A program made the translations under genes and the position numbers. The notes beneath the pieces were generated by a model, which saw only the letters and a list, made by a program, of their open reading frames with translations, searched no databases and had not been told where the DNA came from. Shown here in pieces: positions 28,582 through 39,800 of a stretch of DNA of 64,000 nt; the first letter of the stretch is position 1, and every line of letters starts with the position of its first letter. The DNA is from Primula veris (lineage: Eukaryota > Streptophyta > Magnoliopsida > Ericales > Primulaceae). Location of the stretch: contig OY821745.1 of NCBI GenBank assembly GCA_963682055.1, positions 25,913,342-25,977,341 of the forward strand, written 5' to 3'.

Positions 28582-31500
28582 ATGGTGAAGGTAAGTTTAT
28601 TAATCGTTGTTTTTATTAAAACAGTCTGAAAAATATATAAATTAATTTAATTAGGGTAAGTTCAGTGACATTTTACATAAATTAGGGTTATTAATTGTGT
28701 TTACCCATTTTATATATAAATTAGGGTTCATACTCTATTGTTCATACTCTATTTTTAAATAAAAATTGCGATTCTAATAATATTTGTTGAAAATATTATT
28801 CAGACTGTTTATATTCAGTTGTTTTGGGAATAAAAACATAAAACAGCCTGGAAAAAAGTATTCAGACTGTTTATATTCAGTTGTTTTGGGAATAAAAACA
28901 TAAAACAGCCTGGAAAAAAGTATTCAGACTGTTTAGTGATTCAGACTGTTTAGTGATCTATATGTAATTGTTGAAAATATTATTCAGACTGTTTATGTTT
29001 AGTGATTCTAATAAAATTCGTATTCAGACTGTTTATATTCAGTTATTTTCGTAATAAAATTGGTAAAAATAGTATTCAGACTGTTTATGTTTAGTGATTC
29101 TAATAAAATTCGTATTCAGACTGTTTATATTCAGTTATTTTCGTAATAAAATTGGTAAAAATAGTATTCAGACTGTTTTTATGTTTAGCGATTCTAATAA
29201 AATTGGTACTCATACTCTTTATATTCTAATAGGATTATGTTGGAAAAATACTCAGACTGTTTACTTTCTCTGTATTTTAATATGTGCATGAGTTTACACA
29301 GACTGTTTACATACTTTTTGTTATTGTTTTTAGAAACATATTGCCATCAAACATTCGACAAACCCCAAAAACCAACCATCTGACACCACAAACACCAAAA
29401 AAGGCAACATACAGTACAAATCAAACCTGGTTACTGTAATCAAGTTCTTTGTCGAAACAAATTTCAATCCGGCACAACTTGAATTAGTTAAGCAACACTG
29501 TCCGTTCTGGGAATTGATCAATGCTTCTAGAAATGGAGAATTAACCACTAACCAGGCTAGGAAAAGTGATAAAGAATTGTACCAGATGGCCTTGAGGTAC
29601 GACCGAAACTCACAGGCCCTTAAGCTAGGTAGATTCACAGTTCCAATAGAGAGAGACCGTGTGCGTGACATTTATGGAATTTCTGGTAATGCTGAAAATC
29701 CAATAGCTCTCACAAGCTTTGCTAAAAACCAAGAAGCCTACCACAGCTTTGTTGAAAGATGCTTTTCAAATAAACTCAACAAATCCAACCTAACCAAAAC
29801 AGCTATCGTAAAGGCATTGAACGAAGCATTGGTATTAACAACAAAAGTTGGTAGAGAGGACGTCGTCCGACTGGTAACATTGTACATGCTAAATGCATTT
29901 TTCTTGACGGTGAGCGGCATGACCATAGCATTGGGGTACTTGAAAATAGTTGCCGGTGACATCAAAGAGATAAAGGAATATGATTGGGCAACTCATATAC
30001 ATGAGAAGCTTATGGAGTCGCTCAACAACCAAGACCCAAGATCACTGTCCACGTGTCTACTCACGATACCGGTACAATAAAATTACTTCTCAAGACCTTT
30101 TTTTATTAGTTCATACTCTTTTTTATAAGTTAGTACTCTTTTTATATGTTCATAATGTTCTTAAGTTGTTTATTATTACATCAGACTCTTTATTTATTTC
30201 CATTATAAATCAGACTGTATTATTACTATCATAAATCAGACTGTATTAAATCTCAGTATGTTTAAAAAATATCAAAAAATCTCAGACTGTTTTTACAAAA
30301 CTGTAAAAACAGTCTGAATAATACTAAAAACAGTCTGAATAATATATTATTAAATCTCATAATGTATTGTTACTATCATTTAAGACAATATACTAAAAAA
30401 CAGTCTGAATCATTTAAAAAACAGTCTGAATCATTTAAAAAACAGTCTGAATCATTTAAAAAACAGTCTGAATCATTTAAGACAATATATTATTGCTCTA
30501 TCTATCTCAGACTGTTTTTACAAAAACTGTAAAAAGAGTCTGAATAATACTAGAAACAGTCTGAAAATAGATTATTAAAAATCACACTGTATTGTTACTA
30601 TCATTTAAATCTCAGACTGTATTCTTAAATACTGTATTTCCATCTGTACAGTATGTCATCCTTGAAAAGTTCAATATTTCAAACCCGGACATGACAAAAG
30701 AATCTCAGACTGTTTTTACAAAACTGTAAAAACAGTCTGAATAATACTAAAAACAGTCTGAATAATATATTATTAAATCTCATAATGTATTGTTACTATC
30801 ATTTAAGACAATATACTAAAAAACAGTCTGAATCATTTAAAAAACAGTCTGAATCATTTAAGACAATATATTATTGCTCTATCTATCTCAGACTGTTTTT
30901 ACAAAAACTGTAAAAACAGTCTGAAAATATATTATTAAAAATCAGACTGTATTGTTACTATCATTTAAATCTCAGACTGTATTCTTAAAAACTGTATTTC
31001 CATCTGTACAGTATGTCATCCTTGAAAAGTTCAATATTTCAAAACCGGACATGACAAAAGAAGCATCCACAAAGGCTTTGTGTGTCAAATGGGACGTCTT
31101 TTCATTCTTCAAGTTGTGTTCCTCAAGGTTCACAATTGTAGACCTGTGCAATGAAAAGGTATAACACTATTTCTATACAATTGTAGACTGTTTTTATTCT
31201 ATCTATACAATTGCTTCTAAAAACCTTATCATTCTTTAAATTATCATCATAGGGATGTAGAAAACAATCAAAAAACCTCGTTATTTATGATGGTAAAAAG
31301 AAGCTACCTCCGAAACCAAAGCGATTAACAGATGAGGAGTTGGAGAAAGAGATAGACGAAGATGTTGAAGATCCTCAGAATGTTTACTCTAGTTCAACAG
31401 AAGAGGAAGGCTTGGAAAACTCTGAAAATGAAGGCTCGGAAAACACAGAAGAAGACTCTGGGAGCGAAAATGAGTCAGACAACAATTTTACCATCTCCCT

Positions 31501-38818: not shown

Positions 38819-39800
38819 CAGAAAAAATACCTGTGCACAAAAACAGTATGAAGTATTAAATTTTAATAATAAACGCAATTGATCTCTAAAAACCTAACAA
38901 AAACCTACATTGTGTTACAAAAAACAGTCTGAGTTATTATATAATAAGAATACAATAGCTCAGACTGTTTATAATAACTCAGACTGTTTTCTGTAACTCT
39001 AGAATACAATAGCTCAGACTGTTTTTAAAAACAGTCTGAATACAAGAAAAAACAGTATGAACTCTTAAATTTTAACAATACAAAATCATACAGAACAGTC
39101 TGAATTATTATAATAAACACTGTTTTTTAAAACAGTCTGAATACAAGAAAAAAACAGTATGAAGTATTGAATTTTAATAATAAACGCAATTGATCTCTAA
39201 AAACCTAACAAAAACCTACATTGTGTTACAAAAAACAGTCTGAGTTATTATATAATAAGAATACAATAGCTCAGACTGTTTATAATAACTCAGACTGTTT
39301 TCTGTAACTCTAGAATAAATAGCTCAGACTGTTTTTAAAAACAGTCCGAATACAAGAAAAAACAGTATGAACTCTTGAATTTTAACAATACAAAATCATA
39401 CAGAACAGTCTGAATTATTATAATAAACACTGTTTTTTAAAACAGTCTGAATGCAAGAAAAAAACAGTATAAAGTATTGAATTTTAATAATAAACGCAAT
39501 TGATCTCTAAAAACCTAACCAAAACATGCATTGTGTTACAGAAAACAGTCTGAGTTATTATATAACAAGAAATACAGTAGCTCAGACTGTTTATTAATAA
39601 CTCAGACTGTTTTCTGTAACTCTTGAATACAATAGCTCAAACTGTTTTTTTAAAACAGTCTGAATAAATCATACATTGTGTTAGAAAATTCTGATTTATT
39701 ATTTATTATAATAAATCTCTAAAACCTAAATTCAGCAAAGCAATTTGAGCTAAACTCAGCAAGAAAAACGAAGCTAGCAATAAAAAAACAGTTTGAAGAG
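38819..39800 (-). repeat. Transposase leader: three ~310-bp tandem units rich in the motif
   Basis: A unit marked by AAACGCAATTGATCTCTAAA recurs at 38871, 39182 and 39492 (periods 311 and 310). Each unit contains roughly seven motif copies, in both orientations, and a perfect or near-perfect motif palindrome. It lies between the transposase start codon and the right terminal repeat, so it is probably 5' untranslated or leader-intron sequence, and copy number could affect expression. Confidence 0.85.

Follow-up and report, generated by a model that had tools for sequence, protein, structure and literature searches.

Candidate docking sites for an anti-silencing protein in the non-coding DNA of a Mutator-like element family of Primula veris

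Why would a single 11-bp word, TCAGACTGTTT, fill the introns, the intergenic DNA and the transposase leader of one transposable element? The question is raised by a window of Primula veris DNA, by which we mean the whole stretch of 64 kb that was analysed (67% A+T; contig OY821745.1, here called C6, of a genome of 436.5 Mb and 34 contigs). Positions 28310-40097 of this window hold a complete Mutator-like element (MULE) with two genes, in which a first-pass annotation had noticed the word. The answer that we favour, with a probability of roughly 0.7, is that the motif copies act in cis as docking sites for a transposon-encoded anti-silencing protein, for which the product of gene 1 is the likeliest candidate. 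This reading draws on the distribution of the motif, the rapid turnover of its arrays and the domain content of gene 1.

Placement of the motif within the element

The element has the features of its class, namely a 9-bp target duplication that is perfect on both sides when read by eye, inverted ends and a mudrA-type transposase. Exact copies of TCAGACTGTTT number 87 in the window (42 on the forward and 45 on the reverse strand), and all of them lie inside the MULE, as do all 133 sites with up to one mismatch (68 and 65, respectively); with up to two mismatches, 151 sites fall within the element and 23 outside. The initial description of a word recurring in both orientations through introns, intergenic region and leader, with no full copies in the flanking DNA, therefore holds, as the 52,211 nt of the window outside the MULE contain no exact copy.

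That description had also proposed that the motif follows non-coding status rather than distance from the ends, which the compartment counts confirm (the MULE being taken here as 28311-40099). The internal non-coding DNA (6,020 nt) accounts for every one of the 87 exact copies, which are distributed among the gene-1 introns (46 in 3,403 nt), the convergent intergenic region (16 in 1,172 nt), the gene-2 introns (10 in 433 nt) and the gene-2 leader (15 in 1,012 nt). No exact copy occurs in the 5,229 nt of coding DNA, which has two sites with one mismatch and two with two mismatches, nor in the first 271 nt and the last 269 nt of the element. Exact copies number 5-16 in each of the five introns that exceed 300 nt, and none or one in each of the seven that measure 85-110 nt. 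When the internal non-coding segments were shuffled 100 times with preservation of dinucleotides, exact copies averaged 0.04 (maximum 1) against the 87 observed, and copies with up to one mismatch averaged 0.42 (maximum 3) against 131. No clear bias was seen in motif spacing modulo 10.5. The last exon of gene 1 starts and ends with motif-like sequence (34892, 35024 and 35043, with one or two mismatches), the only other coding near-copy being at 31375.

The consensus TCA[GT]ACT[GC]T[TA]T takes in most of the tolerated variants. Among the 131 non-coding copies with up to one mismatch, 87 are exact and positions 2, 5 and 9 are invariant, while 35 of the 44 one-mismatch copies have T or A for G at position 4, C or A for G at position 8, or A for T at position 10, a pattern that is partly built in by the selection of variants for their likeness to the consensus. 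A second variant, TCATACTCTTT, occurs three times (29210-29220, 30111-30121 and 34104-34114).

Ordinary tandem duplication explains part of the arrays, for example at 38839-39666, where the unit is 310 bp long, and at 37427-37555, where it measures 17 bp. When the 87 copies are grouped by their flanks under a strict threshold (18 of 24 flanking letters), however, about 40 contexts result, 29 of them unique, so that a single large duplication is insufficient to explain them. The number of contexts is 36 at 16 of 24 letters and 15 at a loose 14 of 24, where 67 of the 87 copies fall in one cluster, although A+T richness inflates this loose grouping. The coordinates of the element, its genes and its motif-bearing compartments are given in Table 1.

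Table 1. Features of the element in window coordinates; both gene models were drawn by eye from the sequence and are predictions.
Feature	Position	Strand	Details
Target-site duplication, left copy	28301-28309		9 bp, ATGTCTTTA; read by eye
Complete MULE	28310-40097		11,788 bp; inverted ends, target duplication, gene content
Left terminal repeat	28310-28400	+	~2.4 tandem copies of ~30-bp unit (GGATTGGTCCATGAAA...); without motif; inner limit approximate
Gene 1, VANC/KIU-like candidate	28582-35053	+	11 exons, 1022 aa, no internal stop
Gene 1 exons 1-6	28582-28590, 29334-30071, 31012-31158, 31253-31904, 32000-32158, 32736-33369	+	
Gene 1 exons 7-11	33952-34051, 34137-34223, 34329-34592, 34686-34801, 34891-35053	+	
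Gene-1 intron	28591-29333	+	11 exact copies (10 +, 1 -)
Gene-1 intron	30072-31011	+	16 exact copies (4 +, 12 -)
Gene-1 intron	32159-32735	+	5 exact copies (1 +, 4 -)
Gene-1 intron	33370-33951	+	12 exact copies (12 +)
Convergent intergenic region	35054-36225		16 exact copies (5 +, 11 -)
Gene 2, MULE transposase	36226-38818	-	3 exons, 719 aa, no internal stop
Gene 2 exons	38818-37732, 37408-36863, 36752-36226	-	
Transposase intron 1	37409-37731	-	9 exact copies, all transposase sense; 17-bp tandem unit
Transposase leader	38819-39830	-	15 exact copies (8 +, 7 -); mostly 310-bp tandem repeat
Right terminal repeat	40005-40097	-	~2.5 inverted copies of ~29-bp unit; without motif; inner limit approximate
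Target-site duplication, right copy	40098-40106		ATGTCTTTA; read by eye

Occurrence and turnover of the arrays across the genome

The word had been described as belonging to one MULE, but it proved to be family-wide. Exact copies of TCAGACTGTTT number 15,396 in the genome (7,843 and 7,553 on the two strands) against 267 of the reversed word (150 and 117), making the motif about 58 times commoner; its rarity outside the family rests on this comparison and on the 52-kb window flank. A genome search with the transposase yielded 127 exon matches from the 62 candidates scored among 1,768, with first-exon matches 84-99% identical to the window transposase. The 30 best loci were taken with 1.5-kb flanks, and include the window's own (L026) and one (L020) that belongs to a near-identical full copy on contig C1 (L009 and L010 together). 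The motif is present in all 30; intron 1 always holds 9-15 exact copies, whereas exon 1 is free of them, and the full C1 copy carries 89 exact motifs compared with 87 in the window. Several transposase loci on different contigs match that of the window at 99% over exon 1, indicating that the family was amplified recently.

The arrays themselves change quickly. In 20 of 36 pairs of loci with identical exon 1 (pairs that share members and are not independent), intron 1 differs in length, by up to six motif copies, and length differences despite identical exons show that the arrays turn over faster than point mutations accumulate. Long open frames raised the possibility that intron 1 is coding in some copies, which we rejected: the GT/AG borders are kept in the 30 copies, in-frame stops occur, and the intron lengths take all three values modulo 3, as expected of an intron containing a growing and shrinking array.

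Comparisons between close copies addressed the conservation of the motif sites. Over the full length of the C1 copy and the window copy, differences affect 3 of 1,335 positions in motif sites (degenerate definition), 30 of 4,599 in other non-coding DNA and 8 of 5,229 in coding DNA. Two of the three motif-site differences sit in one variant copy, the TCATACTCTTT at 29210-29220, and restore the consensus, which suggests conversion between motif copies. A second comparison with this near-identical copy (4/955 in the motif versus 42/4994 in other non-coding DNA) leans toward conservation, as does one with a fragmentary copy (L015; 1/55 versus 46/312).

Elements lacking the genes were found among ten stretches of contig C1 (L009-L018) that were picked from the first motif matches. 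One is a 3.6-kb element, L011:5463-9110 (C1:5591462-5595109), with ends as in the window MULE and a perfect 9-bp duplication, TTGTTTCTA, but no match to the protein of gene 1 or gene 2; the long frames inside it were rejected as genes, being repeat-derived. About 3 kb of its interior (~5780-8760) is made up of AAACAGTC..ACTGTTT words that form arrays and are set apart by short spacers, and its 185 half-sites (107 AAACAGT and 78 ACTGTTT) make up, with their neighbours, 35% of its letters. The observed/expected ratio of CpG dinucleotides is 1.35 in this element, as against 0.59 for the MULE of the window and 0.61 for the DNA that flanks it there, and a CpG-centred palindrome, AAACAGTCCGGACTGTTT, stands in its arrays alongside the standard motif. 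L013, an element of 1.3 kb whose ends are of this type too, has 16 motif copies in a single orientation and likewise matches neither MULE protein.

Of the remaining stretches, L015 looks like a deletion derivative: its matches to the leader and to both end regions are at 73-91%, and it carries 7 exact copies, although it has only one end word at up to one mismatch. L014 has 4 copies and a 78% match over 83 nt to the family end, without the short end word. In each of L016, L017 and L018 the motif occurs exactly once and the end word is absent; L016 is similar to intron 2 of gene 1 over 93 nt, and the single copies in L017 and L018 may be due to chance. No motif copy was found in L012.

Gene 1 and the proposed anti-silencing role

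All ten introns of the gene 1 model have GT..AG borders. A Pfam scan identified a Ulp1 protease domain at the C-terminus of the predicted protein (PF02902, E 6.9e-10), and the best Pfam match of its N-terminal part is to DUF1985 (residues 133-231; E 0.0084, with a score of 16.5 bits where the cut-off is 35.1). Against solved structures, the C-terminal part matched only yeast Ulp1 (1euv, E 0.15, a weak alignment), and the N-terminal part gave only a chance match (E 0.65) with no VANC entry seen. In the weak Ulp1 alignment (34329-35053), His, Gln and Cys are kept and Asn occupies the position of the yeast Asp. When 7,985 candidates from the protein collection were scored against the whole protein, no homologue reached E<=1e-3. 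For exon 2, 314 candidates gave a single match at E<=1; it shows 100% identity over 66%, is unlabelled as to source and is taken to be the window's own protein. The single-sequence structure model of exon 2 reached a mean predicted local distance difference test score of 42.5. The charged middle of the protein is taken as a coiled coil. Among 12 Ulp1 matches listed in the genome, the one that was read (L051, C6:20702000-20711999) was rejected as a Ulp1 MULE: neither gene matched beyond chance, the motif is absent, and the locus looks like a host gene for a SUMO (small ubiquitin-like modifier) protease.

Taken together, the distribution of the motif, its turnover, the Ulp1 domain and the weak DUF1985 match lead us to read the arrays as probable docking sites for the gene 1 protein. 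The dense arrays in introns, intergenic DNA and transposase leader would recruit this protein along the whole MULE, where it would remove or block DNA methylation, so that both genes and the ends stay usable. Host DNA, having no dense arrays, would be spared, and elements that lack the genes but share these ends and arrays would borrow the protein. In this scheme we infer the binding of the motif by gene 1, the loss of methylation and the benefit to gene-less elements from the arrangement of the sequence.

This arrangement was thought undescribed in the first-pass annotation, but it is already known from Arabidopsis with other motifs. Hosaka et al. (2017, PMC5735166) showed that VANC21 of the VANDAL21 element binds YAGTATTAY in its non-coding DNA, be it intronic, intergenic or terminal, and that DNA methylation is lost across VANDAL21; they argue that motif density matters, and report that the target arrays grow and shrink as tandem repeats with rapid gain and loss. 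VANC6 works likewise with other motifs, AGTTGTCC and AGTTGTAC, including on unrelated motif-bearing elements (AT9TSD1) (PMC5735166). RNA-directed DNA methylation is reported to target the same non-coding regions (2023, PMC10398659). In addition, Ulp1-carrying VANC genes (KIU, Sasaki et al. 2022) are said in a review to act on non-coding motifs of related elements (2026, PMC13317346), and the VANDAL group has a 9-bp target duplication with absent or degenerate terminal inverted repeats (PMC6446971).

The Primula element resembles VANDAL21 in being a MULE with a 9-bp duplication and a short motif in introns, intergenic and other non-coding DNA but not in exons; in its tandem-embedded arrays that vary between related copies; and in a motif density that marks the family against the rest of the genome. 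A further possible likeness is that it encodes a candidate DUF1985-type protein, with a sub-threshold match. It differs in its word, TCA[GT]ACT[GC]T[TA]T rather than YAGTATTAY, in its clear terminal inverted repeats, and in having two genes found, the first ending in a Ulp1 domain, instead of vanA, vanB and vanC. The VANDAL6 system shares the same non-coding tandem arrangement, with VANC6 being a related protein that recognizes another motif, whereas the motif itself is unrelated to ours (4 of 8 positions at best). By the description in the review (PMC13317346), gene 1, a VANC-type candidate, can be set beside KIU (Kaonashi, eudicot MULEs), which has a Ulp1 domain on a VANC-type gene. What the Primula family has of its own is another word and array-filled gene-less relatives.

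Several results weigh against a docking function. The DUF1985 match is weak, lies below the threshold and is unlisted at E<=1 in the scan of the full-length protein. The motif agrees with that of VANC21 at 7 of 8 overlapping positions, a likeness that is not significant, since 19% of shuffled motifs do as well. Its orientations are mixed, with 26 of 86 neighbouring pairs opposite, whereas same-direction arrays are reported for VANDAL21. In two older copies, differences affect 53/484 motif positions versus 257/2380 in other non-coding DNA and 186/3108 in coding DNA (L049), and 45/465 versus 237/2258 and 232/4147, respectively (L050), so that the motif is no better conserved there than other non-coding DNA and purifying selection on it is undemonstrated in these copies. 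In both copies, sites with A or T change less inside the motif than outside it, and those with C or G change at least as often inside, C-to-T and G-to-A changes being numerous, as expected of methylated CAG/CTG sites; since these are decaying copies, the changes probably occurred mostly after insertion. In the alignment of the 30 young copies, variability is only slightly lower in the motif than elsewhere in the non-coding DNA, with variable columns at 30/231 in the motif, 89/562 in other non-coding DNA and 318/2097 in coding DNA, and non-singleton variable columns at 9/231, 32/562 and 34/2097.

A different function for the same sites is one alternative, in which the arrays bind the transposase, or a host transcription factor driving both genes, and serve transposition or transcription rather than anti-silencing. 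The dense motif in the transposase leader, where promoters lie, fits this idea, as does its retention together with both ends in the gene-less L011 and L013. We nevertheless consider it unlikely, as the ends are free of the motif and have their own ~30-bp repeated unit, a more natural transposase site that includes GGATTGGTCCA and is present in about 2.5 copies at each end, and as neither a transposase nor a promoter factor needs copies in introns or in a convergent intergenic region, kilobases from both promoters.

It is also improbable that the word is a selfish or neutral short tandem repeat without any binder, multiplied by slippage and unequal exchange wherever coding constraint allows. 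Tandem structure, fast array turnover, the lack of excess motif conservation in L049 and L050 and the single loose flank cluster (inflated, as noted, by base composition) all agree with such an origin, and coding constraint alone would explain the absence from exons. It accounts less well for the diversity of strict flank contexts, for the occurrence of the word in two orientations and in all compartments of the internal non-coding DNA, for the confinement of most single mismatches to three positions, and for L011 and L013, in which similar ends enclose other interiors with the same word in different spacers.

Of the explanations offered at first, a repeated binding site for an element protein, taken together with evasion of silencing, is the one favoured, while splicing enhancers and hairpins that feed or evade small-RNA silencing are very improbable: some inverted neighbours could form hairpins (e.g., near 30282-30320) and sense copies prevail in introns overall (39/56), in the first introns of both genes (10/11 and 9/9) and in 33370-33951 (12/12), but antisense copies prevail in the introns at 30072-31011 (12/16) and 32159-32735 (4/5), intergenic and leader copies occur in both orientations, 60 of 86 neighbouring pairs share one orientation so that most cannot form hairpins, the seven short introns are nearly devoid of the motif, and the motif-bearing L011 and L013 match neither gene.

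If the docking-site reading is correct, the raw sequence of another plant by itself reveals a sequence-specific anti-silencing system of the kind known from Arabidopsis. The motif density is very high here, near-identical copies have open gene models, and elements without genes may exploit the system. As the motif and its candidate binder lie side by side, the binding specificity is directly testable, and a search for words that saturate a single transposon family's non-coding DNA and nothing else could yield lists of such protein-motif pairs across plants. A more tentative extension, which we put at somewhat below even odds, is that gene-less MULEs of the L011 kind are nothing but parasites of the anti-silencing system, with terminal repeats for the transposase, docking half-sites for the shield protein (185 in L011) and little more. 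The palindrome AAACAGTCCGGACTGTTT would then be a possible second binding class, and such elements would compete with autonomous copies for the shield protein and drive an internal arms race over the motif.

The transposase and the surroundings of the element

The predicted product of gene 2 contains the Pfam domains PF10551 (MULE transposase, E 3.2e-20), PF03108 (MuDR DNA-binding, E 6.7e-7) and SWIM PF04434 (E 5.9e-6). It also has an N-terminal PB1 domain (PF00564, E 1.6e-6), a domain known from domesticated MUSTANG genes and considered unusual on a mobile MULE.

Fragments of Copia-type retrotransposons flank the MULE on both sides (14841-17222, 57923-58681 and 61647-63662). A 409-aa frame at 42101-43327 corresponds to Transposase_32, a putative plant transposon protein (PF20167, E 9.4e-13), and two clusters of ~162-bp tandem units lie at 18868-19725, with consensus letters that seem complementary by eye.

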